Origin: Aureimonas sp. AU12
Lineage (GTDB): Bacteria; Pseudomonadota; Alphaproteobacteria; Rhizobiales; Rhizobiaceae
DNA length: 64,000 bases
Direction of reading: 5' to 3'
Assembly (NCBI RefSeq): GCF_001463705.1
Contig: NZ_BBWH01000034.1
Location: 1-64,000 of the forward strand
Within the stretch, counting starts at the first letter, position 1. Each line of letters starts with the position of its first letter. Positions 12,254 through 63,978 of the stretch are shown here, piece by piece. The translations under genes and the position numbers were made by a program. The notes under the pieces are model-generated. The model was not told the origin of the DNA and did not search any database. It saw only the letters and a program-made list of their open reading frames with translations.

Positions 12254-12322
12254 GATGGGGGTGTTCCGAGAGAGAGCGGCCGGAGCGGCCAGGGATCGAA
12301 GGCCAGGGATCGAAGACTGGGA

Positions 12323-13354
12323 TCAGAGGGCCGGGATCAGGCCGTCCGCTTCGAGCGCCTGCCAGAGTTCGGCGGGGATCGGCTGTTCGAACCAGGCGAC
12401 GTTGCCCTCGACCTGCGCGGCGGTCTTGGCGCCGATCACGACGGCCGTCGCGGCGGGGTGGCGCAGCGGATACTGGATGGCGGCGGCGGGCAGCGGCACC
12501 TCGAAGGCGCGGCAGATGCCCTCCAGCCGCTCGACCTTGGCGAGGATGTCGGCGGGCGCGTCGACATAGTTGAACTTCTTGCGCCCCGAGGACGAGGCGA
12601 GGATGCCGGAATTGAAGACGCCGCCGATCACCAGATCGACGTCGTGGCGCAGCGCCATCGGCAGGAAGGTCTGCGCCGCGTCGCCGTCGAGCAGCGTGTA
12701 GCGCCCGGCCAGCAGGCAGCAGTCGAGGGCCGTCTCGTTCATCGCGTCGGCGATCACCTGCCATTCGTTGACGCCGAGGCCGAAGCCGGCGATCAGCCCG
12801 GCCGCCTTCAGCTCGGCGAGCGCCCGGAAGCCGCCGCCCTTCGTCAGCGCCGCCCAATGGTGGTCGTGCAGTTCGCCATGGGTGACGCGGCCGATATCGT
12901 GGACGTAGAGGAGGTCGAGGGCCCCAAGTCCCGTGCGCTGGCGCGAGTCGTCGTAGGAGCGCAGGATCGCGTCGTAGGAATAGTCGAAGACCTCGCGGAA
13001 CGGCAGGCCGTTGTGCCAGCCGCTGTCGAACTCGTTCTTCGGCGGCTCCGGCGGCAGGGCGCGGCCGGGGCGATCGAAGGTCATCAGGCGCCCGACCTTC
13101 GTCGAGACGCGGAAGGGCTCGCCCTTCTCGCGCAGCATCTCGCCCGAGAGGTGCTCGGAGCGGCCGAGCCCGTACATCGGCGCCATGTCGTAATAGCGGA
13201 TGCCGGCGGCCCAGGCCGCCTCGAGCGCGGCCTTGGCGTCGGCCGTCGAAACGGGGGCATAGAGGCCGCCGAGCGGGGCGGTGCCCATGCCGAGCAGCGT
13301 CAGGTCGATCGCGGCCCGCTTGAGGCGGCGGGTCTGGGAGGCTTTGAAGGACAT
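12323..13354 (-). CDS. Aldo/keto reductase, aldose 1-dehydrogenase type
   Basis: A 343-aa aldo/keto reductase resembling D-threo-aldose 1-dehydrogenase (L-fucose dehydrogenase), which oxidises C1 of the sugar to the lactone with NAD(P). Family landmarks are the early LGMGTAPLGGLY, catalytic Asp/Tyr in RYYDMAPMYGLGRSE, Lys in VSTKVGRLM, and His in DLLYVHDIGR. The NAD(P) site lies near AVVIGAKTAAQVEGN. The ATG at 13354 opens the coherent protein; GAGG lies upstream. Together with the lactonase-like protein and FucU it would make aldonate from the imported sugar. Substrate is inferred from context only. Confidence 0.88.
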   Translation of the reverse strand: MSFKASQTRRLKRAAIDLTLLGMGTAPLGGLYAPVSTADAKAALEAAWAAGIRYYDMAPMYGLGRSEHLSGEMLREKGEPFRVSTKVGRLMTFDRPGRALPPEPPKNEFDSGWHNGLPFREVFDYSYDAILRSYDDSRQRTGLGALDLLYVHDIGRVTHGELHDHHWAALTKGGGFRALAELKAAGLIAGFGLGVNEWQVIADAMNETALDCCLLAGRYTLLDGDAAQTFLPMALRHDVDLVIGGVFNSGILASSSGRKKFNYVDAPADILAKVERLEGICRAFEVPLPAAAIQYPLRHPAATAVVIGAKTAAQVEGNVAWFEQPIPAELWQALEADGLIPAL

Positions 13355-13383
13355 GGGGGCGGGGGCCTCTGAGCAGGTGCGGG

Positions 13384-13401
13384 CGAAGCGGATGCGCTTC
13401 G
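13384..13401. repeat. Dispersed palindromic element, copy B
   Basis: A short copy with a 7-bp stem, CGAAGCG (13384-13390) with CGCTTCG (13395-13401) and loop GATG, then GTCGTCGGAGG. It lies just upstream of the aldo/keto reductase gene and 80 nt from copy C. The core and flank match copy A closely. Confidence 0.55.
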
Positions 13402-13482
13402 TCGTCGGAGGTTGAGTACCTAGAACCGGACGCCCGGCCGGCGAACCGGTGGCCGCCGGGCGGGGGCGCGAAAGCATGTCCA

Positions 13483-13574
13483 GATGAAGCGGACACGCTT
13501 CGTCGTCGGACAAGGCGGACAAGACAAACACCTGGAGCGCATCTGGCGAACCCATGTCCGCCGGATGCGCTCTA
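13483..13574. repeat. Dispersed palindromic element, copy C (two stems)
   Basis: The fullest copy. Its first stem is GAAGCG/CGCTTC (13486-13501) with loop GACA. Its second stem is 14 bp with one T-G mismatch (13535-13548 with 13559-13572) and a 10-nt loop. The element ends CTCTAG, which contains the TAG stop of the permease gene read leftward (13572-13574). It lies between two genes of the same operon and could attenuate the 3' half. Confidence 0.65.
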
Positions 13575-14576
13575 GAGATGCGCGCGGGTCTTGCGCCGTG
13601 TCCAGACCACCAGCGCGACGCCGGCGATGAGGAGCGCGGCGCGCACGATCTGGCGCTGCGAGTCGGTCCAGCCGAGAAGCGCCGCGCCGCTGAGGAGGAC
13701 GGCGAGCAGCAGGACGCCGGTCAGCGTTCCCACGACGTTGGGCTTGCCCATCTTCAGCGCCATGCCGCCGAGCAACACCGCCGTCAGCCCGTCGATGAAG
13801 TAGGACGAGCCGATATAGGGCTGGCCGGACGAGAGATCGGCGGTGAGGAGGATACCGGCGAGCGCCGAGAGGACGCCGGAGAGGATGTAGAGGAGGAAGA
13901 GCAGCCGCTCGGCCGGCACGCCCGCCTCCACCACCGCGTTGCGGTTCTGCTCCATCGCATAGATGTAGTGGCCGAAGGTCGTGCGGTCCTGCAGGAGATA
14001 GGCGGCGCCGTAGAGCAGGGCGACGCCGAGCGCGATGAGCGGCACAAGCCCAAGATCGGCCGCGACGATCTCGCCGACGAAGCCGGTAGTGCGCAGCGAG
14101 ATCGACGTGCCCTTGCCGATCGCCGCCGCGATCGAGCCGGCAAGGCCCCCGGTGGCGATGGTGATGACGAGGGCGGGCAGCCGCATCACCGCGACGAGCA
14201 GCCCGTTGAGGCAGCCGACGACGAGCCCGGCGATGAGCGCGGCGAGCGAGGCCAGCGGCCAGCCGACACCGGCCGCGACGAGCCCGGCGACGATCATCGT
14301 GGCGAGCGCGGCCACCGACATGAACGAGACGTCGATCTCGCCGGCGGCGATGATCCAGGTGAGGCCGAGGAACATCAGCGCCGAGATCGAGGCCGAGCGC
14401 AGGATGTCGTTGGCGTTGGCCGCGCTCGCAAAGCTCGGGCGCAGCCAGGAGAAGGCGACGACGAGCGCGGCCAGGAGGATGAAGAGGCCGAAGCGCACTA
14501 GGAAGCGGCGCGCGTCGAAAGCGGGGGACCGGGATGCGGATCCGGTGGCGGTGGTGGTCGGCATGACGGCGCTCAT
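13572..14576 (-). CDS. Ribose-type ABC transporter permease
   Basis: A 334-aa polytopic inner-membrane protein of the BPD_transp_2 (RbsC/AraH/XylH) family with about nine to ten hydrophobic segments. The family loop after the first helices, FLGLTWIIAAGEIDVSFMSVAALA, is clear. The later segments GGLAGSIAAAIGKG and GLTAVLLGGMALKMGKPN are also typical. Its start overlaps the upstream permease stop by 4 nt (ATGA), so the two permeases are translationally coupled and probably form a heterodimer. The stop lies in palindromic element C. Confidence 0.93.
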   Translation of the reverse strand: MSAVMPTTTATGSASRSPAFDARRFLVRFGLFILLAALVVAFSWLRPSFASAANANDILRSASISALMFLGLTWIIAAGEIDVSFMSVAALATMIVAGLVAAGVGWPLASLAALIAGLVVGCLNGLLVAVMRLPALVITIATGGLAGSIAAAIGKGTSISLRTTGFVGEIVAADLGLVPLIALGVALLYGAAYLLQDRTTFGHYIYAMEQNRNAVVEAGVPAERLLFLLYILSGVLSALAGILLTADLSSGQPYIGSSYFIDGLTAVLLGGMALKMGKPNVVGTLTGVLLLAVLLSGAALLGWTDSQRQIVRAALLIAGVALVVWTRRKTRAHL

Positions 14577-51179: not shown

Positions 51180-52646
51180 ATGAACCCAGCCTTCCGCATC
51201 GCCGCCGGCGGCATTCACAGCGAATGCTCGACCTATTCCCCCGTCCTCATGCAGCTGGAGGATTTTCGCGTCCTGCGCGGCCCCGAGATGTCGGGCGCCG
51301 AGACCTTCGCGTTTCTCCATGCCGAGGGCGTCCACGTCACGCCGCTGCTGCATGCGCGCGCCGTGCCGGGCGGGCCGGTGGCGCGCGAGACCTACGAGGC
51401 GCTGAAGGGCGACTTCCTCGCCCGGCTCGAAGCGGCGCTGCCGCTCGACGGGCTCTATCTCGCTCTGCACGGCGCGCTGAACGTCGAGGGCCTGGACGAT
51501 GCCGAGGGCGACTGGGTCACGGCGGCCCGCGCGCTCGTCGGCGAGACCTGCATCATCGTGGCGAGCTACGATCTCCACGGCAATGTCAGCCCCCGCGTCG
51601 TCGACGGGCTCGACATCTTCGCGGCCTATCGCACCGCGCCGCACATCGACACACGTGAAACAATGGAGCGCGCCTTCGCCATGCTCGCCTCGGCGCTGCG
51701 CGACGGCGTGCGGCCGGGGATCGCTTGGGCACCCGTGCCCGTGCTGCTGCCGGGCGAATGCACGTCCACGCAGGACGAGCCGGCGCGCGGGCTCTATGCG
51801 GCGTTGCCGGGCTTCGACGCGCGGCCGGGCATCCTCGATGCCAACCTGATGATCGGCTATGTCTGGGCCGACGAGCCGCGCGCCACCGCCTGCGCCGTCG
51901 TCACCGGCACCGACCGGTTGGCGGCGCTGGCGGCGGCGGGCGAGATCGCCGGCGCCTACTGGGTGGCACGCGAACACTTCGGCTTCGGACCGGTGACGGG
52001 GCCGCTCGCCGAGATGCTGGATCTCGCCGAGTCCGCTACGACGCGGCCCGTCATCCTCGCCGACAGCGGCGACAACCCGACAGGCGGCGGCGTCGGCGAC
52101 CGCGCCGACGTCCTCGCCGGGCTCCTGGCGCGGGATTTCCGCGGCGCTCTCATGGCTGGCATCACCGACCGACCTGCGGTGGAGGCCTGTTTCGCGGCCG
52201 GTGAGGGGGCGACGCTCACCCTCTCGATCGGCGGCAGTCTCGACCCATCGAGCCGGCCCGTGGAGACGCAGGCGACGGTCGTCCGGCTCGACGATGCCGG
52301 GACTGCGCGCGAGCGTCAGGCGGTGGTGGCGCTGGGAGGCGAGGGCGGCATCACGCTCGTGCTGGCGGCGCGCCGTCGGCCCTATCACGACCTCGCCGAC
52401 TTCCACCGCCTCGGCCTCGATCCCGCCGGGGTGCGGCTCCTCGTGGTGAAATCGGGCTACCTCTCGCCGGAACTCGCCCCCATCGCCAACCCCAACCTGA
52501 TGGCGCTGACCGACGGCGTCGTGAACCAGGACATTCCCCGCCTCGCCAGCCGCCGCCGCGCGGGACCGCAGTTCCCGTTCCAGCGCGACTTCGAGTTCAC
52601 GCCCGCGCCCCGGCTCTCGGCGCGCTGGAACGAGGGCGGCGCTTGA
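51180..52646 (+). CDS. MlrC-type (peptidase family M81) protein, copy 2
   Basis: A 488-aa M81/MlrC-family protein, a distant paralogue of the copy at 44908-46419. It begins AFRIAAGGIHSECSTYSPVLM and shows LYLALHGALNVEGLDDAEGDW, ASYDLHGNVSPRVVDGLDIFAAYRTAPHIDTRET (two potential zinc histidine sites) and VILADSGDNPTGGGVGDRADVLAGLL. It overlaps the MFS gene start by 4 nt. The family's general role is unclear. It may hydrolyse amide bonds of an imported compound together with the hexosaminidase. Confidence 0.9.
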   Translation: MNPAFRIAAGGIHSECSTYSPVLMQLEDFRVLRGPEMSGAETFAFLHAEGVHVTPLLHARAVPGGPVARETYEALKGDFLARLEAALPLDGLYLALHGALNVEGLDDAEGDWVTAARALVGETCIIVASYDLHGNVSPRVVDGLDIFAAYRTAPHIDTRETMERAFAMLASALRDGVRPGIAWAPVPVLLPGECTSTQDEPARGLYAALPGFDARPGILDANLMIGYVWADEPRATACAVVTGTDRLAALAAAGEIAGAYWVAREHFGFGPVTGPLAEMLDLAESATTRPVILADSGDNPTGGGVGDRADVLAGLLARDFRGALMAGITDRPAVEACFAAGEGATLTLSIGGSLDPSSRPVETQATVVRLDDAGTARERQAVVALGGEGGITLVLAARRRPYHDLADFHRLGLDPAGVRLLVVKSGYLSPELAPIANPNLMALTDGVVNQDIPRLASRRRAGPQFPFQRDFEFTPAPRLSARWNEGGA

Positions 52647-53905
52647 GCGATCCGGGTCCCGTCGTGAGCGCCCCGACCCCGACGGCCGCCTCGGGGCGCT
52701 CGCTTCCCGCGCTGCTGCGCGATCCCACGATCCGCGCCAGCATCCTCGCCATCTTCTTCTACGGCTTCTCGGGCGCGGCCACCGCGCCCTACCAGTCCGT
52801 CATCGGCCTCACCGAACTGAAGCTCGGCAACGGGCTCTACGCGCTCCTCATCCTCCTCGGCGCCACCGTTAACGTCCTCGTCAGCATCTCGATCGGCATT
52901 CTCGCCGACCGGATCGGGCGCTACCGGTCGCTGATGATCGTGGTCGGCCTGTTCGGCGTCACCGGCTACGGGCTGATCTACGCCGTTCCGACGCCGGCGA
53001 GCTTCGTCCTCGCCTCGCTCCTGCTGCTGCCGGTCTATCACTCGATCAACTCGCTGCTCTTCGCCAACGTGCGGGTGACCACCGACCGGCTCGACGGCGC
53101 CGCGGCGGGCGCGGTGAACTCCACCGTGCGCGCGGCGATCTCGCTCTCCTGGGTGCTGGTGCCCGGCCTCGTGGCGCTTCTGCTCGTCGGGCGCGCCAGC
53201 ATGTTGCCGGCCTATCTCATCGCCAGCCTCGCGGCGCTCGCCACCGTCCTCGCCGTCCTGGTTCTGCTGCCCGACAACCCGGCGCGGCCCCGCGCCGCGC
53301 CGACGGGCGCGGCGGCGTCCGCCTATCTCGCGGGCTTTGCCGAGGTGCTGTCGCCGCGCGTCTTCGTCCGGCTGCTGGCGCTGGCGCTCATTGCCTCGAC
53401 GCTGCATGTCAACGCCGCCGTGCTGCCGATGATCGTGACGGGCGCGGCGGGCGGTGACGTCACGGATATCGGCGTCACCGTCGGCGCGGTGGCGCTGCTC
53501 GAGGTCGTGTTCATCTTCGTCTGGGCCGGCATCCAGCGGCGCATCGGCAACGTGCGGGCGCTGATCGCCGGCACCGTGATCTACGCCGCCTATCTGGCGC
53601 TCCTCGGACTCGCCTCCTCGCCGGTCCACGTCTACGCGCTGACGCTTCTCAGCGGCTTCGGCGCCGCGGCGATCATCTCGATCCCGATCACCTACCTGCA
53701 GGATCTCATCGCGGGTCGGCCGGGCCTCGGGAGCTCGCTGATCTCGGTGAACTTCTTCATGGCCGGCGGGCTCTGCGCCGCGCTCTTCGCCTTCGGCACC
53801 TGGATCACCGACTACAGCGGCACCTCGATCCTCGGTGCGCTCGCCGCCCTCGCCGGCGCGGCCCTGCTCTTCGCGCTCGACGGGCGGCGGGCGGCTGTAA
53901 AGTAG
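52643..53905 (+). CDS. MFS transporter (SetB/sugar-efflux-like)
   Basis: A 420-aa inner-membrane carrier with about twelve hydrophobic segments. The MFS motif after helix 2 is GILADRIGRYRSLM. The opening IRASILAIFFYGFSGAATAPYQSVI and the overall look resemble the SetB-type sugar transporter group. It starts with TTG at 52643, overlapping the MlrC-type stop (TTGA); a GTG at 52664 is an alternative. As last gene of the operon it may import or export the sugar-containing substrate or product. Confidence 0.9.
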   Translation: MSDPGPVVSAPTPTAASGRSLPALLRDPTIRASILAIFFYGFSGAATAPYQSVIGLTELKLGNGLYALLILLGATVNVLVSISIGILADRIGRYRSLMIVVGLFGVTGYGLIYAVPTPASFVLASLLLLPVYHSINSLLFANVRVTTDRLDGAAAGAVNSTVRAAISLSWVLVPGLVALLLVGRASMLPAYLIASLAALATVLAVLVLLPDNPARPRAAPTGAAASAYLAGFAEVLSPRVFVRLLALALIASTLHVNAAVLPMIVTGAAGGDVTDIGVTVGAVALLEVVFIFVWAGIQRRIGNVRALIAGTVIYAAYLALLGLASSPVHVYALTLLSGFGAAAIISIPITYLQDLIAGRPGLGSSLISVNFFMAGGLCAALFAFGTWITDYSGTSILGALAALAGAALLFALDGRRAAVK

Positions 53906-54301: not shown

Positions 54302-54772
54302 CCATTACCTAGCCGCTCGCATCGCCGGGCAGTAGCGCTAAGCCGGCATGGCAGCCCTCGCATTCTTCGCTATCTCGCACCTGCGTTGCAGCCATGCGCT
54401 CAGCGAATGGCTTGATCATCTGAAATGGAAACCATTTGATGAATCGACGCTGACAAAGGGTCCGATGGCCTGCAAATGGGGAACTGTGCAAACTGTGTTC
54501 CGGTAGAAGAATCGCCGGAGCCGCATTCCCATATAATCAGCATGACGAATGATTGGATGCACTGCACAAGAACGGGGTCCGACCACCGTCTCGCCTGCGA
54601 TGATCGTCGCCCGGACCCTCTTGTGGGATCGCCCTCTGCGGCAGATCTGTCGTGATCGTGGACCACAACCGACGGCACCCCAACCCCAGCGCGTGGCTCG
54701 ACTGTTCATACGTCGCGTTTCCCCTTAGGAATATGCCTTGAACGAGGTTCAAGCATCGGAAGACGCCACGTC
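54302..54772. other. Lower-GC gap upstream of the XRE-cupin gene
   Basis: No confident gene. The stretch 54350-54560 is distinctly less GC-rich than the rest. A frame from ATG 54348 to TAG 54506 would encode 52 residues (MAALAFFAISHLRCSHALSE...) but has no clear ribosome-binding site. Several minus-strand frames also cross the region. The end carries a clean inverted repeat (54737-54753), listed separately. The promoter of the regulator and that of the DUF1127 gene should lie here. Confidence 0.45.
54737..54753. promoter_or_regulatory. Inverted repeat CTTGAAC-N3-GTTCAAG before XRE gene
   Basis: Perfect 7-bp arms (54737-54743 and 54747-54753) with spacer GAG lie 19 nt before the regulator's ATG. 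The half-site TTCAAG recurs in the inverted repeat at 55484-55500 ahead of the operon. This fits autoregulation by the XRE-cupin protein. Confidence 0.55.
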
Positions 54773-55393
54773 ATGAACGGACAATCCGAGCCACAGGGGC
54801 GAACCGGTCCGGAGGGAGAGCGCAGCCAGGCGGCGTCGCTGCGGCTCGGCGTCCGGCTGAAGCTGGCGCGCCAGACGCGCGGCATGACGCTGAAGGCCCT
54901 GTCGCTGAAGGCCGACTGCTCCGAAAGCCTCCTGTCGAAGGTCGAGAACGGCAAGGCCTCGCCCTCGCTGCCGATGCTGCACAAGCTCGTCGAGGTGCTC
55001 GGCACCAATATCGGCTGGATGTTCGAGGAGGTCGACGGCGAGGAGGGCATCGTCTTCCGCGCGGGATCGCGCCCGCTCATCGCCCTCGACCCGCTACGCC
55101 AGGGCGAGGGTATCGCGCTCGAGCGGGTCATTCCCTATTCGGCCGGGCATCTTCTCCAGTGCAACATCCACCATATCGGCCCCGGCGGCACGAGCGCCGG
55201 CCCGATCCAGCATTCGGGCGAGGAGGTCGGCTATCTCATCGCCGGCGAGATCGAACTCTTCGTCGAGGCGCGCGCCTTCCGGCTCGGCCCCGGCGACAGC
55301 TTCGCCTTCCGCTCGGAGCTGCCGCACCACTACCGCAATGTCGGCGAGGTGCCGGCCAGCATCTTCTGGGTGAACACGCCGCCGACGTTCTAG
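54773..55393 (+). CDS. XRE-family regulator with cupin domain
   Basis: A 206-aa regulator (PuuR/HipB-like). The helix-turn-helix spans about residues 26-82 (LKLARQTRGMTLKALSLKADCSESLLSKVENG). The C-terminal cupin domain (about 125-200) has GPGGTSAGPIQHSGEEVGYLIAGEIELFVE and the second motif GPGDSFAFRSELPHHYRN, with His/Glu positions that could bind metal or ligand. Such proteins often control the adjacent catabolic operon in response to its substrate. The ATG at 54773 lies 19 nt after an inverted repeat. It is followed after 170 nt by the transporter operon. Confidence 0.93.
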   Translation: MNGQSEPQGRTGPEGERSQAASLRLGVRLKLARQTRGMTLKALSLKADCSESLLSKVENGKASPSLPMLHKLVEVLGTNIGWMFEEVDGEEGIVFRAGSRPLIALDPLRQGEGIALERVIPYSAGHLLQCNIHHIGPGGTSAGPIQHSGEEVGYLIAGEIELFVEARAFRLGPGDSFAFRSELPHHYRNVGEVPASIFWVNTPPTF

Positions 55394-55474
55394 GCAGGTC
55401 CTGCCTTCGCTCCGCGCACGAAATGCCTGCAATCTCGGCAGTTTCATTATATGGCGCTGCAGCGAGCAATTGAG

Positions 55475-55503
55475 TTGACAGCCATTCAAGTTTCTTGAAT
55501 TCT
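55475..55503 (+). promoter_or_regulatory. Promoter with overlapping operator ATTCAAG-N3-CTTGAAT
   Basis: A -35-like TTGACA (55475-55480) is followed 17 nt later by AATTCT, a weak -10. The spacer holds a perfect 7-bp inverted repeat, ATTCAAG (55484-55490) and CTTGAAT (55494-55500) with spacer TTT. A repressor bound there would block polymerase. It lies 60 nt upstream of the binding-protein gene. The half-sites match those before the XRE gene. Confidence 0.55.
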
Positions 55504-55563
55504 CTCCCCAGCGCAGAAGCGCGACCGAGGGCCCGCCGGGCCGCCGAGCCAAAGGGGAATTCC

Positions 55564-56505
55564 ATGCGCCTGTCCCAGATCCTCTCCGGTGGCGTCGCCG
55601 CCGCCGTCCTGACCCTCGGCTTCGGCGCCGCCTCCGCGCAGGCCGACACCTACGCGCTCGTGACGATCAACAGCCAGGCGCTGTTCTTCAACCAGATCAA
55701 CGACGGCGCCAAGGCCGCCGCCAAGGCCGCCGGCGCCGAGCTGGTGATCTTCGACGCCAACAACGTGCCGGCGGCGCAGAACTCGGCGATCGAGACCTAC
55801 ATCACCCAGAAGGTCGACGGCATCATCCTCGTCGCCATCGACGTGAACGGCGTCAAGCCGGCCATCACCGAGGCCAAGGCCGCCGGCATCCCCGTGGTGG
55901 CGATCGACGCGCAGATCCCCGGCGGCGACAACGTCTCCTTCATCGGCGTCGACAACGCCAAGGCCGGCGCCGACATCGGCAAGTTCTACGCCGACTACGT
56001 GAAGGCCGAGATGGGCGGGGAGGCGACCGTCGGCGTCGTCGGCGCGCTCAACTCCTTCATCCAGAACCAGCGCCTCGACGGCTTCAAGCAGGCCGCCACC
56101 GCCAGCGGCGAGAAGATTGCGTTCCTCGACACGGTGGACGGGCAGAACGTGCAGGACGTGGCGCTCGGCGCCGCCGAGAACCTGATGACCGCCAACCCGA
56201 CGATGAAGACGCTCTACGCCACCGGCGAGCCGGCGCTGATCGGCGCGGTCTCGGCCGTCGAGAGCCAAGGCCGGCAGGCCGACGTCAAGGTCTTCGGCTG
56301 GGACCTGACGGCGCAGGCGGTCAAGGGCATCGACGAGGGCTGGGTCGCCGCCGTGGTGCAGCAGGATCCCGCCGGCGAGGGCAAGGCCGCCGTCGAGGCG
56401 CTGGTGAAGCTGAAGAAGGGCGAGAGCGTCGAGCCGATCATCAACGTGCCCGTCACCATCGTCACCAAGGCCAACGTCGATCAGTTCCGCGCCATGTTCA
56501 AGTAA
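55564..56505 (+). CDS. Ribose-type ABC transporter substrate-binding protein
   Basis: A 313-aa periplasmic receptor of the Peripla_BP_4 family. The signal peptide covers about residues 1-29 (MRLSQILSGGVAAAVLTLGFG, then cleavage near AQADTY). The mature part shows ALFFNQINDGAKAAAKAAGAELVIFDANN, ILVAIDVNGVKPAITEAKAAGIPVVAIDAQ and FIGVDNAKAGADIG, as in ribose/xylose receptors. AAGGGGA lies 6 nt upstream of the ATG. It is the first structural gene after the XRE-cupin regulator. Ligand unknown; a nucleoside, pentose or related compound is possible. Confidence 0.93.
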   Translation: MRLSQILSGGVAAAVLTLGFGAASAQADTYALVTINSQALFFNQINDGAKAAAKAAGAELVIFDANNVPAAQNSAIETYITQKVDGIILVAIDVNGVKPAITEAKAAGIPVVAIDAQIPGGDNVSFIGVDNAKAGADIGKFYADYVKAEMGGEATVGVVGALNSFIQNQRLDGFKQAATASGEKIAFLDTVDGQNVQDVALGAAENLMTANPTMKTLYATGEPALIGAVSAVESQGRQADVKVFGWDLTAQAVKGIDEGWVAAVVQQDPAGEGKAAVEALVKLKKGESVEPIINVPVTIVTKANVDQFRAMFK

Positions 56506-56519
56506 GCCGGCGCACAGTT

Positions 56520-56545
56520 CCCCGTGGGCGATCTCGCCCGCGGGG
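56520..56545 (+). repeat. Intercistronic hairpin after binding-protein gene
   Basis: CCCCGTGGGCG (56520-56530) pairs with CGCCCGCGGGG (56535-56545) with one T-G pair and loop ATCT. It lies 15 nt after the binding-protein stop and before the ATPase gene. No T-run. It probably stabilises the binding-protein message or limits read-through. Confidence 0.6.
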
Positions 56546-56623
56546 TTCCCGTCCCGCGAACCATCCAGCCGATCGGATGCCGCCCGTCCGGCGGCGTCCG
56601 CATCCGATGCAGGACCTCAAGCC

Positions 56624-57427
56624 ATGACCCTTCCCCCGCCCGATCGCGTCCGCATGACCGGGATCTCGAAACGCTACGGGCCGATCCAGACGCTGCACGA
56701 CGTCTCGCTGCGGCTGGCGCCGGGCGAAGTGCTCGGCCTCGTCGGTGACAACGGCGCGGGCAAGTCGACGCTGTCGAAGGTCCTGTCCGGCGCGGTGGTG
56801 CCCGATGGCGGCACGATCGAGATCGACGGCGTTCCCGTCGCCTTCGCATCTCCCGCCGACGCGCGCGCCGCCCATGTCGAGATGGTCTACCAGGACCTCT
56901 CGCTCTGCGACACGGTGGATGTCGCGGGCAATCTCTTCCTCGGCCGCGAGCCGCGCCGCAAGGTCGCCGGGCTCCCCTTCCTCGACAAGCCGCGCATGCA
57001 TGCCGACGCCAAGTCGATGCTGGAGCGGCTTGGCATCGTCATCGCCGACACGAAGCTTCTCGTTGAGAACCTCTCGGGCGGCCAGCGCCAGTCGATCGCG
57101 ATCGGGCGCGCCGCCTCCTTCGATCCGAAGGTTCTCATCATGGACGAGCCGACGGCCGCCCTCGCGGTGGCCGAGGTCGAGGCGGTGCTGGAGTTGATCC
57201 GCACGGTCTCGGTGCGCGGCGTCAGCGTCATTCTCATCACCCACCGCCTGCAGGACCTCTTCCTCGTCTGCGACCGCATCCAGGTCATGTACGAGGGCCG
57301 CAACGTCGCCGAGCGGCGTATCGAGGACACCAGCATCGAAGACGTCGTGAACCTCATCGTCGGCCGCAAGTTCCAGGCGCGCTCGGCCGGGCATCGCGGC
57401 GAAGACTCGGGAGCCCTGCCGGCATGA
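56624..57427 (+). CDS. Half-size sugar ABC transporter ATP-binding protein
   Basis: A 267-aa single-domain ATPase. It resembles one half of the tandem RbsA-type proteins. Walker A is GDNGAGKST, the Q-loop region is EMVYQDLSLCDTVDV, the signature is LSGGQRQSIAIGRA, Walker B is VLIMDEPTAAL, and the switch His is in ITHRLQDL. The importer would use two copies of this protein. The ATG at 56624 has AGGA about 8 nt upstream. It overlaps the permease start (ATGA). Confidence 0.94.
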   Translation: MTLPPPDRVRMTGISKRYGPIQTLHDVSLRLAPGEVLGLVGDNGAGKSTLSKVLSGAVVPDGGTIEIDGVPVAFASPADARAAHVEMVYQDLSLCDTVDVAGNLFLGREPRRKVAGLPFLDKPRMHADAKSMLERLGIVIADTKLLVENLSGGQRQSIAIGRAASFDPKVLIMDEPTAALAVAEVEAVLELIRTVSVRGVSVILITHRLQDLFLVCDRIQVMYEGRNVAERRIEDTSIEDVVNLIVGRKFQARSAGHRGEDSGALPA

Positions 57428-58476
57428 CCCCCACCAAGACCGATGCGGCGCTCGACGTCGCCCCCCTTCATGCCGCCCCCCTTCATGCACCGGGCCATGC
57501 GCCGCGCGTGCGCCGGACCAACTGGCGCGATCGCTTCATGGCCAATGGCAGCGTCGCCTCGATCGCGATCTTCTTCGCCCTCGTCTGCCTTCTCTTCACG
57601 CTGACCACCGACGCCTTCCTCACCACGCCGAACCTTCTCAACATCATCCGCCAGTCGGCCCCGCTCCTCATCGTCGCGGCCACCATGACCTTCGTCATCA
57701 CAACCGGCGGCATCGATCTTTCGGTCGGCTCGGTGCTGGCGCTGGTCTGCGCGCTCTCGGCGGCGCTCCTGCAGTTCGGTCTGCCCTGGCCGGTGGTGAT
57801 CCTCGCCATGCTGGCGCTCGGCGCACTCGTCGGTGCGATGCAGGGCTTCTTCGTCGCCTACGAGGGCATTCCCGCCTTCATCGTGACGCTGGCCGGCCTC
57901 TCGGTGATCCGGGGCCTGGCGCTCCTCATCACCGGCGGCTACTCGATCCCCATCGCGCCCGACAGCCCGTTCGTGATCATGGGTCGCGGCTGGTTCCTCG
58001 GTGTGCCCATTCCCGCCTGGATCGCGCTCGCCGCGCTGATCATCGCCTGGATCGCCTTCAACCAGACGCGGTTCGGCCGCTACGTCACCGGCATCGGCGC
58101 CAATGCCGAGGCGGTGCGCCGGGCCGGCGTCGACACGCGCTTCACCACGATGATGGTCTACGTCCTCTCCTCCAGCGCCGCCGCGCTCGCCGGCATCGTG
58201 CTGGCGGGGCGGCTCGGTTCGGGCTCGTCCAATTCCGGCCAGGGCTTCGAGCTGGAGGTGATCGCCGCCGTGGTGCTCGGCGGCACCAGCCTCTTCGGCG
58301 GGCGCGGCACGCTGGTCGGCACTGTTCTCGGCGCGCTCACCGTCTCGGTGATCGCCAACGGGCTGATCCTCTCGCACATGTCGCCTTTCCTGACGCCGAT
58401 CATCACCGGCTGCATCATCCTCGTCGCGATCTGGCTGAACTTCCGCCTGTTCCGCGGCGCGTCCCGCAAGCGCTGA
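57424..58476 (+). CDS. Ribose-type ABC transporter permease
   Basis: A 350-aa inner-membrane permease of the BPD_transp_2 family. A soluble N-terminus of about 38 residues is followed by eight to ten hydrophobic segments. The hallmark FVITTGGIDLSVGSVLALVCALSA is intact. Also typical are YEGIPAFIVTLAGLSVIRGLALL, NQTRFGRYVTGIGANAEAVRRAGV and VIAAVVLGGTSLFGGRGT. The start overlaps the ATPase stop by 4 nt. It is the only permease, so it presumably forms a homodimer. Confidence 0.95.
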   Translation: MTPTKTDAALDVAPLHAAPLHAPGHAPRVRRTNWRDRFMANGSVASIAIFFALVCLLFTLTTDAFLTTPNLLNIIRQSAPLLIVAATMTFVITTGGIDLSVGSVLALVCALSAALLQFGLPWPVVILAMLALGALVGAMQGFFVAYEGIPAFIVTLAGLSVIRGLALLITGGYSIPIAPDSPFVIMGRGWFLGVPIPAWIALAALIIAWIAFNQTRFGRYVTGIGANAEAVRRAGVDTRFTTMMVYVLSSSAAALAGIVLAGRLGSGSSNSGQGFELEVIAAVVLGGTSLFGGRGTLVGTVLGALTVSVIANGLILSHMSPFLTPIITGCIILVAIWLNFRLFRGASRKR

Positions 58477-58480
58477 CCCG

Positions 58481-59569
58481 ATGGAACTCGACTTCCAGCC
58501 CCGCACCCCCGCGCCCACCGGCATCGGCGTCGCCACCGGCCATGCGATGACCGTCGCGGGACCGATCCCGGTCGAAGACATGGGCGTCACGCTCATGCAC
58601 GAGCACATCTTCATCGACGGCGAAAAGTCGTGGTCCTGCCCGTGCCATCCCGATCTTCGCGCGATGGCCGAGGAGCCCGTGCACATGGGCATCATCGGCG
58701 AGCTGCGGATGAACCCCTACATCAACCGCGACAACGTCTCGCTGACCGACAGCGACCTGGCGCTCTCCGAGCTCAAGCTCTTCCAGGCGCTCGGCGGCCA
58801 CACGGTGGTCGATCCCACCAATATCGGCATCGGCCGCGATCCGCAGAAGCTCGCGCGCATCTCGCGCATGAGCGGGCTGAAGATCGTGATGGGCTCGGGC
58901 TTCTATCTCGAGCACACCCATCCCGACTGGCTGAAGCGGATGGATGTCGACGAGGTGACGGAGTTCCTCGTCCACGATGTCGGCGGCGCGGCCGAGAAGC
59001 CGGAGGTCATCGCCGGCATCATCGGCGAGGTCGGGGTGTCCAAGGACTTCACGGCCGAGGAGCGCAAGTCGCTGCGGGCCTCGGCGCGGGCTTCGGCGCG
59101 CACCGGCGTGCCCCTGTCGATCCACCTGCCGGGCTGGGAGCGCCTCGCCCACGAGGTGCTCGACATCGTGGAAGGCGAGGGGGCCGATCTCAGGCACACC
59201 GTGCTCTGCCACATGAACCCCAGCCACGACGACCTGCCCTACCAGAGCGCGCTGGCCCAACGCGGCGCGTTCCTGGAATACGACATGATCGGCATGGACT
59301 ATTACTATGCCGACGCCGACTCGCAGTCGCCCTCCGACGAGGAGAACGCCCGCGCCATCCGTTCGCTGGCGGATCTCGGCCATGCCGACCGGCTGCTGCT
59401 CAGCCAGGACGTCTTCCTCAAGATGATGCTGACCCGCTTCGGCGGCTTCGGCTACGCCTACATCCTCAAGCACTTCGTGCCGCGCCTGAAGCGCCACGGC
59501 CTCGACGCGGCCGTGATCGACCGGATGCTCGTCGACAACCCGCGCGCCGTCTTCTCCTCAGCGGCGTAA
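58481..59569 (+). CDS. Phosphotriesterase-homology (PHP-type) metallohydrolase
   Basis: A 362-aa TIM-barrel binuclear-metal hydrolase of the phosphotriesterase family. The predicted metal ligands are all present: His40 and His42 in LMHEHIF, His215 in SIHLPG, His244 in LCHMNPS and Asp310 in SQDVF. The bridging position holds Glu183 (GEVG) instead of carboxylated lysine, as in E. coli PHP. Family members hydrolyse lactones, phosphate esters or acylated sugars, and rarely organophosphates. It lies 5 nt after the permease gene and is part of the catabolic operon. The natural substrate is probably a lactone or ester form of the imported compound. Confidence 0.92.
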   Translation: MELDFQPRTPAPTGIGVATGHAMTVAGPIPVEDMGVTLMHEHIFIDGEKSWSCPCHPDLRAMAEEPVHMGIIGELRMNPYINRDNVSLTDSDLALSELKLFQALGGHTVVDPTNIGIGRDPQKLARISRMSGLKIVMGSGFYLEHTHPDWLKRMDVDEVTEFLVHDVGGAAEKPEVIAGIIGEVGVSKDFTAEERKSLRASARASARTGVPLSIHLPGWERLAHEVLDIVEGEGADLRHTVLCHMNPSHDDLPYQSALAQRGAFLEYDMIGMDYYYADADSQSPSDEENARAIRSLADLGHADRLLLSQDVFLKMMLTRFGGFGYAYILKHFVPRLKRHGLDAAVIDRMLVDNPRAVFSSAA

Positions 59570-59612
59570 AGCGCTCCCTTCCTCCTCGTCTTCTTCCCAA
59601 GGAAACAGCATC

Positions 59613-60383
59613 ATGTCCCGATCCAAGGTCCTCCTCGCGGGCGAATCCTGGGTGTCCACCGCGACGCACATCAAGGGCTTCGACCAGTTCCCGACCGTCA
59701 CCTACCACCAGGGCGCGGACGAACTCCTCGCGGCGCTGAAGGACAGCCCGTTCGACATCACCTTCATGCCCGCCCATGCCGCGCAGCGCGACTTCCCGCA
59801 GACGATCGAGGGCTTACGCGAATACGACGCGGTGATCCTGTCCGACATCGGCGCCAACACGCTGCTGCTGCATCCCGACACGTGGATCCATTCCAAGACC
59901 ACCCCGAACCGGCTGAAGCTCCTGCGCCAGTATGTCGAGGAAGGCGGCGCGCTCCTGATGTTCGGCGGCTACTACTCGTTCCAGGGCATCAACGGCGGTG
60001 CGCGCTATGCCCGCACCCCGGTCGAGGACGTGCTGCCCGTGACGTGCCTGCGCTTCGACGACCGCGTCGAGGTGCCCGAGGGCTTCACGCCGGTGGTGAC
60101 GGGCGCCGCCTCGCACCCGATCCTTGAGGGGCTCGGGGCCGAGTGGCCGGTGCTTCTGGGCTACAACGAGGTCGAGCTGAAGCCGGGCGCCGAGGTTCTC
60201 GCCACCGTCTCCACCGAATACGGCTCGCAGCCGCTCCTCGTCACCGGCACCTACGGCAAGGGCCGCTCGGTGGTCTGGACCTCGGACGTCGGCCCGCATT
60301 GGCTGCCCTCGACCTTCATCGCCTGGGAGGGCTACGCCAAGCTCTTCGCCGCGATGCTCGCCTGGTCCATCGCCAAGGATTGA
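59613..60383 (+). CDS. ThuA/glutamine-amidotransferase-like protein
   Basis: A 256-aa protein with a class-I glutamine-amidotransferase/ThuA-like flavodoxin fold. It has VLLAGESWVSTATHIKGFDQF, YDAVILSDIGANTLLLHP and VEEGGALLMFGGYYSFQG. There the residue corresponding to the nucleophile position is Gly/Tyr rather than Cys, so amidotransferase activity is unlikely. The end GKGRSVVWTSDVGPHWLP resembles the wider family of sugar-pathway proteins. AAGGAA lies about 8 nt upstream of the ATG. It lies between the PHP-type hydrolase and the PfkB kinase genes. Function unknown; ThuA relatives act in disaccharide/3-keto-sugar metabolism. Confidence 0.85.
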   Translation: MSRSKVLLAGESWVSTATHIKGFDQFPTVTYHQGADELLAALKDSPFDITFMPAHAAQRDFPQTIEGLREYDAVILSDIGANTLLLHPDTWIHSKTTPNRLKLLRQYVEEGGALLMFGGYYSFQGINGGARYARTPVEDVLPVTCLRFDDRVEVPEGFTPVVTGAASHPILEGLGAEWPVLLGYNEVELKPGAEVLATVSTEYGSQPLLVTGTYGKGRSVVWTSDVGPHWLPSTFIAWEGYAKLFAAMLAWSIAKD

Positions 60384-60388
60384 GGCCG

Positions 60389-61315
60389 ATGGCGGGTCCG
60401 GCCTCCACCGTCCACGTCGTCGGCAATGCCGGGCTCGACACGACGTTTCGCTTGGTGCGCCTGCCCGCGCCCGGCGAAACGCTGAACGCCGACGGCGGCG
60501 GGCAGGGCCTCGGCGGCAAGGGCGCCAACCAGGCGGTGGCCGCGAGCCGCACCAGCGCGCGCGTCACCCTCCATGCGGCGCTGGGGTCGGACGCTGCCGC
60601 GGGCACCATCCGCGAGCGGCTGGCGGCTGAAAGCCTCGACCTTGCCGGATTGGTGACGGCGGCGGGGCCGAGCGACAGCTCCGCCATCCTCGTCGACGCC
60701 GTCGGCGAGAACGCCATCGCCACGCTCAACGATCGCGCGCGCGGCTTCGACCCGCTGGCGGGGACGGGCCTGACGGCCCGCCTCGCGCCCGGAGACATCC
60801 TCCTGATGCAGGGCAACCTGCCGGCGGGGGTCACGCAAGCCTGCCTCGCCTTCGCGCGGGCGCGCGGTGCGACGACGATCTTGAACGCCAGCCCGCTCGA
60901 TGAGCGCGAGACGTGGCGCCTCGACGCCGTCGACTGGCTCGTGGTCAATGCCGGCGAGGCCGGGACGTTGACCGGCGCGGATGACCCTGCCGTCGCTGCC
61001 GCCCGCTTGCGGGCGCTCGGCGCGGCGCAGGTGATCGTCAGCCTCGGCGCCGGCGGCGCACTGATGGTGGATACGGCCGGCACGCGGCAGTTTCCCGCCG
61101 CGCCCGTCACGCCGCTCGACACGAGCGGGGCAGGCGACGTCCTCTGCGGCGTCTTCACCGGGCTCCTCGCGCGAGGGCATACATCGACGCGGGCCTTGCG
61201 CCTCGCCGTCACGGCGGCCGGCATCGCGGTGACGCGGCCGGGCACGCTGGAATCCTGTCCGAGCGCCGCCGAGATCGCCGCGCTCCTCCTGTCAGAACCG
61301 AAAGATCCGTCATGA
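60389..61315 (+). CDS. PfkB-family carbohydrate kinase (ribokinase-like)
   Basis: A 308-aa sugar/nucleoside kinase. The first PfkB signature GGQGLGGKGANQAVAASR is followed by TLHAALGSDAAA. The second, TPLDTSGAGDVLCGVFTGLL, contains the catalytic Asp and anion hole. The protein resembles ribokinase but lacks the adenosine-kinase lid insert. GAGG lies 3 nt upstream of the ATG, and the gene starts 5 nt after the ThuA-like stop. It probably phosphorylates the imported sugar or nucleoside, or a product of the hydrolases. Confidence 0.93.
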   Translation: MAGPASTVHVVGNAGLDTTFRLVRLPAPGETLNADGGGQGLGGKGANQAVAASRTSARVTLHAALGSDAAAGTIRERLAAESLDLAGLVTAAGPSDSSAILVDAVGENAIATLNDRARGFDPLAGTGLTARLAPGDILLMQGNLPAGVTQACLAFARARGATTILNASPLDERETWRLDAVDWLVVNAGEAGTLTGADDPAVAAARLRALGAAQVIVSLGAGGALMVDTAGTRQFPAAPVTPLDTSGAGDVLCGVFTGLLARGHTSTRALRLAVTAAGIAVTRPGTLESCPSAAEIAALLLSEPKDPS

Positions 61316-62163
61316 GCACCCAACCCATCGGCCCCCAACCCATTGGACAAGTCGGCGGCGACGCCATCACGGCGATCTTCGGCCGTTCGAAGGCGATCAT
61401 CGGCGTCGTCCACCTCCTGCCGCTGCCCGGTAGTCCCCGCTTCGACGGCGAGGCGGTGGAGGCGATCTACGCCCGCGGGCTGAATGACGCGATCGCCTAT
61501 CTCGCCAACGGCTGCGACGGCGTCATCGTCGAGAACCACGGCGACGTGCCTTTCGCCAAGCCCGACGACATCGGCCCCGAGACCGCCGCGCACATGAGCG
61601 TCGTCGCCGACCGGATCAGGCGCGAACTTGGGAAGCCCATCGGCATCAACGTGCTCGCCAACGCCTCGATTCCCGCGCTCGCCATCGCCAGCGCGTCGGG
61701 CGCCGCCTTCGTGCGCGTCAACCAGTGGGCCAACGCCTATGTCGCCAACGAGGGCTTCATCGAGGGCGAGGCCGCCCGCGCCATGCGCTACCGCGCGCAG
61801 CTTCGCGCCAAGGGCATCCGCATCTTCGCCGACGCGCATGTGAAGCACGGCGCGCACGCCATCGTCGCCGACCGCCCGGTGGAGGAGCAGGTCAAGGACC
61901 TCGTCTTCTTCGACGCCGATGCGGTGATCGCCACTGGCCAGCGCACCGGCCATGCGGCGGATCTCAGCTACATCCGCATGATCAAGGAAGCGTCCGGCCT
62001 GCCGACGCTGGTCGGCAGCGGCGTGACGCCCGAGAACGCCCGCGACATTCTCGACATCGTCGACGGGGTGATCGTCGCCAGCTCCCTGAAGCACGACGGC
62101 GTCTGGTGGAACCCGGTCGAGCCCGAGCGCGTCAAGCGCTTCATCGCCGGCCTCGGGCGGTGA
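61312..62163 (+). CDS. BtpA/SgcQ-family TIM-barrel protein
   Basis: A 283-aa protein of the BtpA family, named for a cyanobacterial photosystem I assembly factor. Most bacterial members, such as SgcQ, lie in sugar operons and have no assigned reaction. Family blocks are IIGVVHLLPLPGSPRF, YLANGCDGVIVENHGDVPF, INVLANASIPALAIASASGAAFVRVN, FADAHVKHGAHA, and VLVGSGVTPENA-like VGSGVTPENARD. The last resembles a phosphate-binding loop of TIM-barrel enzymes. It overlaps the kinase by 4 nt. A phosphosugar or phosphonucleoside substrate, cleaved or isomerised after the kinase step, is a reasonable inference. Confidence 0.9.
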   Translation: MSTQPIGPQPIGQVGGDAITAIFGRSKAIIGVVHLLPLPGSPRFDGEAVEAIYARGLNDAIAYLANGCDGVIVENHGDVPFAKPDDIGPETAAHMSVVADRIRRELGKPIGINVLANASIPALAIASASGAAFVRVNQWANAYVANEGFIEGEAARAMRYRAQLRAKGIRIFADAHVKHGAHAIVADRPVEEQVKDLVFFDADAVIATGQRTGHAADLSYIRMIKEASGLPTLVGSGVTPENARDILDIVDGVIVASSLKHDGVWWNPVEPERVKRFIAGLGR

Positions 62164-63401
62164 GCGCGGCGCCTCCCCGCATCGATGCCGACCGGCTGCT
62201 GAAACGCCTCGACGCCTTCGCGGCGGTCGGCGCCACGCCGCGCGGCGGGGTCGATCGTCAGGCGCTCACCGTGGGCGACCGCGAGGTGCGTGCGATGCTG
62301 GCGGGGCTCGGCGTCGCACGCGGCTTCACGGTAGAGCAGGACGCAGCCGCAAATCTATTCCTGCGCCGGTCCGGCACGGACGGCGCGTTGCCGCCGCTCC
62401 TTCTCGGCAGCCATCTCGACACCCAGCCGACCGGCGGGCGCTTCGACGGAGCGCTCGGCGTCCTCGCCGGCTTCGAGGTGCTGGAGGCGCTGGAGGATGC
62501 CGGCGTCGCCACGCGCCGCGCGGTCGAACTGGCGGTCTGGACCAACGAGGAGGGCAGCCGCTTCCTGCCGGGCTGCCTGGGGTCGCAGGCCTTCGCCGCC
62601 GGCGCGCTGTCGCCCGAATGGGCGGGCCGTCATGGACCGGACGGCGCGCGGCTCGGCGACGAGCTGGCGGCGACGCTCGACGCCCTGCCCGGCGCGGCCC
62701 TTCGCCCGCTCGGCCGGCCGATCTCGGCCTATCTCGAACTCCATATCGAGCAGGGACCGGTGCTCGAGCGCGAGGGCCTCGCCATCGGCGCGGTGACGGG
62801 CATCCAGGGCACGCGCTGGCTGGAGGTGACGATCACCGGCGCCGCCGCCCATGCCGGCACGACGCCGCCCGCCTATCGCCGCGATCCGATGGTGGCCGCG
62901 GCCGCCGCGCTTCACCGGCTCGCAGGGGTGATGGCACGCGATGGGCTGGCGCGCCTGACGGTCGGGCGCATCCGGGCCGAACCCGGCTCGATCAACGCCG
63001 TTCCCGAGCGCGTCGTCCTCACGCTGGACCTGCGCCATCCAGACGCCGAGGCGCTCGACGCCATCGAGCGCATGGTGCGCGAGGAACTGGGGCAAGCGGC
63101 CACGGAGGCCCGCTGCGAGGCGAGCGCGACGGTGGTCTTCGACATGGCGCCGGTGGCCTTCGACGCGGCGATGGTGGCGCTGGTGGAGGCGTCGGCCGCA
63201 GTGGCCGGCCACGCCTCGCGCCGCCTCGTCTCCGGCGCCTTCCACGACGCGCTGTTCCTCGCGCGCCTCGCCCCCGCCGCGATGATCTTCGTGCCCTGCC
63301 GCGACGGGATCAGCCACAACGAGGCCGAGTTCGTCGAACCGCGCTTCGCGGTGGCGGGCGCCGAGACGCTGCTGGAGGCGACGCTTCGGGCGGCGGTTTG
63401 A
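62160..63401 (+). CDS. M20-family carbamoylase/hydantoinase-type hydrolase
   Basis: A 413-aa Zn- or Mn-dependent amidohydrolase of the allantoate/N-carbamoyl-amino-acid hydrolase group (AmaB type). Metal ligands lie in GSHLDTQPTGGRFDGALGVL and TNEEGSRF. ELHIEQGPVLE and GAAAHAGTTP follow, the latter in the dimerisation domain. The end GAFHDALFLARLAP and CRDGISHNEAEF complete the site. It starts with GTG at 62160 in 4-nt overlap with the BtpA gene. It cleaves carbamoyl or ureido groups in known relatives. This suggests the imported compound has a ureido or amide nitrogen, or derives from a nucleobase. Confidence 0.93.
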   Translation: MSAAPPRIDADRLLKRLDAFAAVGATPRGGVDRQALTVGDREVRAMLAGLGVARGFTVEQDAAANLFLRRSGTDGALPPLLLGSHLDTQPTGGRFDGALGVLAGFEVLEALEDAGVATRRAVELAVWTNEEGSRFLPGCLGSQAFAAGALSPEWAGRHGPDGARLGDELAATLDALPGAALRPLGRPISAYLELHIEQGPVLEREGLAIGAVTGIQGTRWLEVTITGAAAHAGTTPPAYRRDPMVAAAAALHRLAGVMARDGLARLTVGRIRAEPGSINAVPERVVLTLDLRHPDAEALDAIERMVREELGQAATEARCEASATVVFDMAPVAFDAAMVALVEASAAVAGHASRRLVSGAFHDALFLARLAPAAMIFVPCRDGISHNEAEFVEPRFAVAGAETLLEATLRAAV

Positions 63402-63540: not shown

Positions 63541-63978
63541 ATGACCGATATGACCCTGTCCGACCTGTCCGACGCCATGCGCGACATCGACTTCTGCATG
63601 CTGTCGACGCGCACCGAGGGCGGCGCCATCGCCGCGCGGCCGATGAGCAACAATGGCGACGTCGCCTACGAGGGCGACTCGTTCTTCTTCACCTACGAGA
63701 CGGCGCGCACCGTCTCCGACATCGAGCGCGACCCGAAGGTCGGGCTCGGCTTCCAGGGCAAGAAGGGCCTTCTCGGCAAGCCGCCGCTCTTCATCTCGGT
63801 CGAGGGCGTCGCCGAGCTGATCCGCGACAAGGCCGTCTTCGAGGCGCACTGGACCAAGGATCTCGACACTTGGTTCAAGGACGGCATCGACACGCCCGGC
63901 ATCGTGCTGGTCAAGGTCCATGCCGCGCGCATCCATTACTGGAACGGCGAGGACGAGGGCGAAATACCGGTTCGCTGA
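63541..63978 (+). CDS. PNPOx-like (general stress protein 26-type) protein
   Basis: A 145-aa split-barrel flavin-binding-type protein. It has LSDAMRDIDFCMLSTRTEGGAIAARPMSNNGDV, DSFFFTYETARTVSDIERDPKVGLGFQG and ISVEGVAELIRDKAVFEAHW, ending VKVHAARIHYWNGED. Relatives are annotated as pyridoxamine 5'-phosphate oxidase-like or stress proteins and bind FMN or F420. GGGAG lies about 8 nt upstream of the ATG. It is a separate gene 139 nt after the operon, with no direct link to it. The gene is complete; the window ends 22 nt later. Confidence 0.9.
   Translation: MTDMTLSDLSDAMRDIDFCMLSTRTEGGAIAARPMSNNGDVAYEGDSFFFTYETARTVSDIERDPKVGLGFQGKKGLLGKPPLFISVEGVAELIRDKAVFEAHWTKDLDTWFKDGIDTPGIVLVKVHAARIHYWNGEDEGEIPVR

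Follow-up and report, generated by a model that had tools for sequence, protein, structure and literature searches.

What would a bacterium import and break down with an operon that joins a ribose-type receptor and an ATP-binding cassette (ABC) transporter to metal hydrolases, a PfkB kinase and members of two orphan families, BtpA/SgcQ and PF07090? The question arises from 64,000 nucleotides of Aureimonas sp. AU12 (contig NZ_BBWH01000034.1, positions 1 to 64,000; hereafter the window, meaning this whole stretch), which lie within a 4.67-Mb genome. An earlier sequence-only reading had described here an eight-gene operon after an XRE-cupin regulator and had taken it for a candidate undescribed catabolic pathway. 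Every gene is indeed present, on the + strand and in the order it gave. The tight packing that it reported is seen in 4-base overlaps at three junctions (ATPase/permease, PfkB/BtpA and BtpA/M20) and in a widest intergenic gap within the operon of 118 bases, between the receptor and ATPase genes.

Our answer, to which we give a probability of roughly 0.4, is the inducible uptake and breakdown of a compound in which a ribose-like sugar is linked to a nitrogen group that bears an amide or imide. Most likely this would be a nucleoside-like riboside (N- or C-linked) or a related conjugate of a sugar and an amine. The starting points, established from sequence, are the gene set with its domain identities, its conservation, a shared operator and an altered kinase pocket.

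Conservation of the operon

We scanned one genome per species, found 234 BtpA relatives and kept the best 80, a sample that is skewed to close relatives; the nearest of them, at 95% identity, comes from Aureimonas. Seven genes are treated as the core (receptor, ATPase, permease, phosphotriesterase (PTE)-family hydrolase, PF07090, PfkB and BtpA), and the regulator and the M20 hydrolase bring the set to nine. The core is complete on one strand in 74 of the 80 loci, and in 73 it is accompanied by the regulator, while all nine genes are present in 61. Upstream of BtpA, the PTE gene was found in all 80 loci and PF07090 and the kinase in 79 each; ATPase and permease genes were seen in 78, a receptor gene in 76 and a regulator gene in 75. 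Seven loci miss a core gene or the regulator. Three are contig ends (L006, L058 and L062), and the others are differences or missed matches: L003 has no regulator match, L021 no kinase match at the threshold used and L033 no transporter genes, and L075 carries PF07090 on the opposite strand.

The M20 gene lies downstream of BtpA in 65 loci and was not found in 15. One of the latter (L038) is at a contig end and in three (L006, L062 and L074) the downstream sequence runs to no more than about 4 kb. The remaining 11 are all Mesorhizobium, each with 10 kb downstream, and gene calls for the eight that we inspected place unrelated genes after BtpA. The system can do without the M20 enzyme, as these 11 loci and the lineages that carry TenA instead show.

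Among 299 Pseudomonadota genomes (cut-offs of >200 bits for full-length PF07090 and >70 bits for BtpA), 10 carry PF07090, 14 carry BtpA and 8 carry both. The hypergeometric P is 9e-11, or 1.9e-7 by genus, values that are only indicative because the genomes are related. In five of the eight the two genes are clustered and in three they lie apart. The grouping is not chance: the eight genes are one conserved unit with a common promoter motif. 

The kinase pocket

The PfkB/ribokinase-like kinase lies at 60389–61315 (+ strand); its open frame opens at 60143, and the ATG at 60389 is our choice. E. coli ribokinase contacts ribose through N14, D16, G42, K43, N46, E143 and D255 (PMC9604405), and Asn143 of E. 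coli PsuK contacts N3 and O4 of the base (PMC9247573). In our alignment both positions 143 fall in the same column, where the window kinase reads N. Compared with E. coli RbsK it has N14 changed to G, A98 to S and E143 to N. It is not a ribokinase proper: five of the seven ribose contacts are kept, N14 and E143 are changed, and the ribokinase model TIGR02152 gives 188 bits (cut-off 300).

The same change recurs in related kinases. In 94 of the 108 aligned kinase rows, which include the window and the solved kinase 3i3y (presumably from Klebsiella), E143 has become N and N14 is replaced, with the other five contacts kept. These rows read x-D-G-K-N-N-D, the first place being C in 74, A in 9, T in 6, G in 3 and V in 2. 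Five rows read N-D-G-K-N-E-D (RbsK, L172, L185, L182 and L183), and the other nine are other PfkB paralogues or truncated frames (three VDGMSRD, singles from L062, L085, L084 and L152, and two from L047). Ala98 of RbsK is Ser in all 23 operon kinases compared, a subset of the 94 rows. Four kinases that stand beside PF07090 without BtpA retain the ribokinase pocket of N14, A98 and E143. The pocket change therefore tracks BtpA in this sample.

The simplest reading would be that, where BtpA is absent, ribose is freed first and phosphorylation follows, whereas with BtpA the sugar may be phosphorylated with its aglycone attached and cleaved afterwards. From the pocket we predict that what the kinase phosphorylates is not free ribose but a ribose-like compound substituted at C1. 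Kinases fused to DNA-binding domains were also seen beside PF07090, with a LacI domain in L121 (8204–9385) and a DeoR domain in L172 (10131–11357); the LacI fusion points to a role for such kinases in sensing the pathway ligand.

The BtpA barrel

The BtpA/SgcQ-family protein (61312–62163, + strand), our proposed cleaver of the phosphorylated conjugate, belongs clearly to its family: TIGR00259 gives 231 bits (cut-off 153) and PF03437 gives 249 bits (cut-off 30). The photosystem I equivalog NF045918 stays below its cut-off (216 against 400). An AlphaFold model of it is a TIM barrel (pLDDT 77.7, pTM 0.82). The first 50 Foldseek matches include HisF, pyridoxine phosphate synthase, ThiE, TrpA, TrpF and RPE, at 12–19% identity. 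According to the model, BtpA would be a phosphate-binding barrel, and the matches point to no single reaction. A close relationship with TrpA was rejected (hhalign probability 1.4%), as was a role for E74 as the catalytic Glu of TrpA, since E74 is not kept in eight distant BtpA proteins.

Operon-type BtpA is set apart from these eight Sgc-like proteins by V136-N141, D174, H176 and K178. BtpA genes in other contexts adjoin sugar kinases or phosphotransferase system (PTS) genes. Distant BtpA genes (30–34% identical, in L146–L151) were observed near DeoR, FGGY-like kinases and sugar transporters, and near M42-like peptidases in L146 and L148, the families being judged by eye from the starts of the sequences. 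In Sagittula (L085), two hypothetical proteins with no Pfam match lie between BtpA copies.

Promoter, operator and regulator

The promoter with its putative operator spans 55475–55503 (+ strand). A –35 box, TTGACA, stands at 55475–55480 and a –10-like AATTCT at 55498–55503, and the palindrome ATTCAAG-TTT-CTTGAAT (55484–55500) occupies the spacer between the –35 box and the –10 region. Of 76 regions 5′ of the receptor gene, that of the window among them, 62 contain the motif TTCAA-N5-TTGAA, against 0.045 expected from first-order resampling; the consensus of the regions upstream of the receptor gene is cTTGACAa..ATTCAAGTctCTTGAAT. Across the 1.58 Mb of the 80 loci the motif occurs 68 times in all. 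Both annotated XRE-type plasmid loci (L082 and L083) carry it, and none of the 14 variant loci does, 13 of which have a LacI gene and one (L120) no LacI match.

We predict that the XRE-cupin protein (54773–55393, + strand; HTH_3 and Cupin_2 by Pfam), the presumed repressor of the operon, binds this palindrome. Another palindrome, CTTGAACGAGGTTCAAG, was seen 5′ of the regulator gene itself (54737–54753), with half-sites in the order opposite to that of the operon operator. A site like it is present in only 4 of 76 regions, and a conserved operator at this place is not claimed, TTGAA-N5-TTCAA and the reverse order each being found in 4 of 76.

Receptor, transporter and hydrolases

Gene identities were assigned by scanning Pfam and further family models over ten window proteins. 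Most labels of the sequence-only reading hold; its PHP-type protein, however, belongs to the PTE family, and its ThuA-like protein to PF07090, scoring below threshold with the ThuA model (24.1, cut-off 33.4).

The receptor (55564–56505, + strand) is a ribose-type periplasmic binding protein (Peripla_BP_4) whose closest solved relative is 5hsg (347 bits). It differs from RbsB at 7 of what we take to be the 13 ribose-contact positions, including R90 to A and N190 to G, and it keeps F15, F16, D89, R141, D215 and Q235. The ABC ATPase (56624–57427, + strand) has a single ATPase domain; its 267 residues match the AlsA model, which has 510 positions, only up to about position 254. The permease (57424–58476, + strand) is of the BPD_transp_2 type.

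The PTE-family metal hydrolase (58481–59569, + strand; PF02126, 220.8 bits) has its nearest solved relatives in 3k2g (440 bits), 3rhg (217 bits) and 9efa (211 bits), with Php at 114 bits. H40, H42, E183, H215, H244 and D310 are at least 97% conserved in 97 sequences, as befits a member of the PTE superfamily, and are the likely metal ligands by alignment. The protein 9efa is named phosphotriesterase-related, as is the amide hydrolase PTER, and mouse PTER is an N-acyl amide hydrolase, with N-acetyltaurine and N-acetyl-beta-alanine as substrates of PTER (PMC11374699, PMC13311154). We consider the window protein a putative amide hydrolase. PTER's own substrates were rejected for it: two arginines that bind the acid group are missing.

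The PF07090 (GATase1_like) protein (59613–60383, + strand; 381.9 bits) lacks the amidotransferase cysteine. No Cys is conserved at 97% or more in 116 PF07090 sequences, as a class I glutamine amidotransferase would require, and GGY stands at the presumed nucleophile elbow, which was placed by motif rather than superposition. For these two reasons the name glutamine amidotransferase in public records is probably a misnomer.

The M20 protein (62160–63401, + strand, GTG start) is of the AmaB/AllC hydantoinase/carbamoylase type (TIGR01879, 376 bits, cut-off 204). Among the family models, no equivalog of this family reached its cut-off with it, and the zinc-site residues are conserved in 71 sequences.

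Variant operons and PF07090 without BtpA

In a second group of operons LacI replaces the XRE-cupin regulator, and TenA stands beside BtpA in most. Its members come from Rhizobium, Paracoccus, Pannonibacter, Agrobacterium vitis, Pantoea and Enterobacteriaceae; the A. vitis locus carries an AmaB-type M20. The gene directly after BtpA is TenA in 11 loci and an AmaB-type M20 in 71 (the window being counted twice, as L001 and L125), never both. A further 24 BtpA genes have neither as neighbour, some of them on short loci. The TenA proteins of these loci read AEWMY at the position where classical TenA has its catalytic Cys. In the window's own genome, two tandem TenA-family genes were observed elsewhere (contig C31, 145869–147139; L193 and L194) and a third on contig C6 (L192). 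Genome G249 has two separate modules, one of receptor, ATPase, permease, PTE and PF07090, the other a cluster of LacI, permease, TenA, BtpA and PfkB. This indicates that the import/PTE/PF07090 part and the kinase/BtpA part are able to live apart.

Where PF07090 occurs without BtpA, it stands with ArgE/DapE-type deacylases and another ABC set (L121, L122, L154 and L168), beside an NMT1/THI5-type receptor (156.2 bits) and an M24 protein in L178, which L179 and the plasmid locus L181 resemble, with a PIG-L deacetylase in L184, or with LacI and PfkB in Rhodococcus. In L185 its neighbours are a PfkB protein of 408 residues, a hydrolase of the proline-iminopeptidase family and an APC permease; this segment (6896–13850 of the locus, on an E. 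coli plasmid) is flanked by two IS26 copies. L172 is similar and its PfkB protein has an N-terminal DeoR domain. On pTiK224 (L180, 11992–24680), genes in the vicinity of PF07090 encode hydantoinase/oxoprolinase, SIS-domain and fructoselysine 6-kinase proteins as well as an ABC transporter, possibly an Amadori-type opine region.

PF07090 loci thus repeatedly combine importers, PfkB proteins and hydrolases of the amide type, and amide-type hydrolases (PTE, M20, ArgE/DapE and TenA) recur across loci. There are exceptions: L120 and L186 have no adjoining kinase, L182 and L183 no clear adjoining amide hydrolase, and the PF07090 gene of Roseivivax (L187) has only a peptide-type transporter, with no PTE or kinase beside it. 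About 9 kb from that gene, a ribokinase-annotated gene followed by TenA was seen (340–972 and 1–343 of L187).

Neighbouring genes

Upstream of the regulator lie genes for an M81-type peptidase (51180–52646) and an MFS protein (52643–53905), and directly downstream of the operon one for a small pyridoxamine-5-phosphate-oxidase-like protein (63541–63978). An M81-like gene adjoins the operon in Aureimonas AU20 (L082) as well. Membership in the system was rejected for all three, which were matched in 2, 1 and 1 of 82 loci (L002–L083), respectively. A role in defence was also dropped, as PADLOC gave no match to the PF07090 and BtpA proteins.

Proposed pathway and alternatives

We infer both the enzymatic steps and the ligand class. 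The XRE-cupin protein would sit between the –35 and –10 boxes and repress the operon until the ligand arrives. The receptor, ATPase and permease would import the compound, and amide bonds of its nitrogen group would be hydrolysed by the PTE-family enzyme, together with M20 where this is present. The kinase would then phosphorylate the 5-OH with the aglycone still attached, and cleavage of the phosphorylated product by BtpA would release a pentose phosphate and the nitrogen-containing part. The PF07090 protein would be a conserved partner, probably not a glutamine amidotransferase. Such a route would phosphorylate first and cleave second, as PsuK/PsuG and the fructoselysine enzymes FrlD/FrlB do, but another enzyme would do the cleaving.

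Several points weigh against this proposal. It does not account for the PF07090 protein, and there are lineages that do without M20 and lineages that do without TenA. The base contacts Y97, M114, V166, S167 and K170 of PsuK are not shared (the window reads S, N, S, P and E), so Asn143 alone does not show a nucleobase. The kinase signature is broken beside two more distant BtpA genes (L085 has Ala, L152 Glu). PTE relatives include lactonases besides amidases, which makes amide hydrolysis by the PTE protein uncertain. The substrate-binding Arg204 and Arg233 of PTER correspond to Gly218 and Pro247 in the window (9efa alignment, with the numbering offset inferred), and the BtpA model was built on 35 close homologues. 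Moreover, plant enzymes tolerate loss of the Asn14 equivalent (PMC9247573, PMC9604405), so only the change at Glu143 is telling.

Pseudouridine was rejected as the substrate. The genome has its only psuG on contig C43, apart from the operon and next to a gene for a PsuK-like kinase, and the operon therefore probably acts on another compound. A bolder form of our proposal, which we think rather unlikely, makes BtpA a new ribosyl-phosphate-cleaving TIM barrel that would do the job of PsuG in the salvage of damaged or modified amide-bearing ribosides, for example ring-opened formamidopyrimidine, dihydropyrimidine or ureide ribosides. It would account for amide hydrolases, TenA and a kinase with the PsuK-like Asn travelling together.

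Other substrates would fit parts of the evidence. The hydrolases could open a lactam, lactone or acyl group of a glycated amino acid or amide (a deoxy-pentulosyl or fructosyl amine, opine-like), after which the kinase would phosphorylate a terminal OH and BtpA would act as a deglycase, as FrlB does on fructoselysine 6-phosphate. The gene neighbourhood of PF07090 on pTiK224 and the presence of TrpF and HisF among the fold neighbours of BtpA speak for this Amadori-type route, the pathway of these two enzymes handling phosphoribosyl-amines. However, an opposite-strand LysR gene parts PF07090 from the fructoselysine-type genes on pTiK224, the ten window proteins scanned include no SIS protein, and the window kinase resembles ribokinase (188 bits to that model) more than fructoselysine 6-kinase (31 bits). 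We regard the route as rather unlikely.

The PTE protein might instead be a (phospho)sugar lactonase, with the kinase acting on the free sugar, BtpA as an isomerase or epimerase and M20 working on an unrelated side product. A weak match to a phospho-furanose lactonase model (85 bits, cut-off 630) and the FGGY kinases, DeoR and sugar transporters around distant BtpA genes agree with this, but the PTE protein is closer to 3k2g and 9efa than to Php, deacylases replace PTE at other PF07090 loci and the kinase pocket is altered away from ribose, which together make it distinctly unlikely. Finally, TenA directly after BtpA, never together with the AmaB-type M20, and the NMT1/THI5-type receptor of L178 could indicate that a thiamine-like aminopyrimidine compound is salvaged or degraded, in which case TenA would be the usual downstream enzyme and M20 would stand in for it in a deformylase-like role. 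This is improbable: TenA is absent from the window operon, scanning of the ten window proteins revealed no thiamine gene, and the TenA proteins elsewhere read AEWMY in place of the classical motif. The riboside or sugar-amine conjugate remains our preferred substrate.

Significance and comparison with known systems

Rhizobia, aurantimonads, Paracoccus relatives and Enterobacteriaceae, plant-associated bacteria among them, carry the operon or a variant of it. The operon ties BtpA/SgcQ and PF07090 to a kinase whose pocket gives a testable prediction, and solved homologues of the receptor (5hsg), kinase (3i3y), PTE (3k2g) and PF07090 protein (3soz and 2gk3) make finding the ligand practical. If BtpA is a PsuG-like cleaver, the BtpA/SgcQ family would gain its first reaction, and a solution could aid the assignment of E. 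coli sgc and Salmonella rikA.

The sequence-only reading knew of no described pathway with this set. Our searches of open-licence PMC papers turned up none whose title or abstract start assigns it to a pathway, although a description in subscription literature is possible, and the phrases 'SgcQ family' and 'BtpA family' were found in no open-licence PMC paper. The gene set is real and, it appears, has not been described as a pathway, but its phosphorylate-then-cleave logic is already known in kind.

The closest published relative is the Salmonella locus rikA-STM3548-STM3549-STM3550 (STM3547–STM3550; PMC13432705, Mol Microbiol 2026), whose authors leave the substrate open. As in the window, a PfkB kinase, PF07090 and a PTE-family protein adjoin there, together with a transporter. 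Unlike the window, the transporter is of the DMT rather than the ABC type, and the available parts of the paper name no BtpA, M20 or TenA. RikA, encoded with an upstream DeoR-type domain, was shown to be a ribose kinase and, by its authors' count, has eight of ten ribose residues in common with RbsK, whereas the window kinase has a changed pocket. By gene context RikA resembles the type without BtpA. The rikA-like kinases of L172 and L185 keep N, A and E, and by this pocket the window kinase differs from the rikA type.

The sgc operon of E. coli, still called putative in function in 2026 (PMC13343008), shares with the window a BtpA protein (SgcQ), genes for sugar uptake and phosphorylation and a metal hydrolase. 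It differs in having PTS, M42 and epimerase-like genes, and its BtpA is only about 26% identical (L127, by alignment). PTER and the window PTE protein fall in the same branch by score (9efa 211 against Php 114 bits) and both keep the metal ligands; with Gly218 and Pro247 in place of Arg204 and Arg233, the substrate should differ from that of PTER.

FrlD/FrlB resembles the proposed route in its importer, its PfkB kinase and the cleavage of a phosphorylated conjugate, and PF07090 lies near such genes on pTiK224; the window operon, however, has no SIS deglycase and its kinase is ribokinase-type. With PsuK/PsuG (PMC9247573) it shares a PfkB kinase with Asn143 and, in the order proposed here, the cleavage of a riboside after its phosphorylation. 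The likeness to pseudouridine kinase/glycosidase logic drawn by the sequence-only reading gains support from Asn143, but not from the other base contacts of PsuK. PsuG is absent from the operon, as that reading noted, and the cleaving enzyme here would be BtpA.

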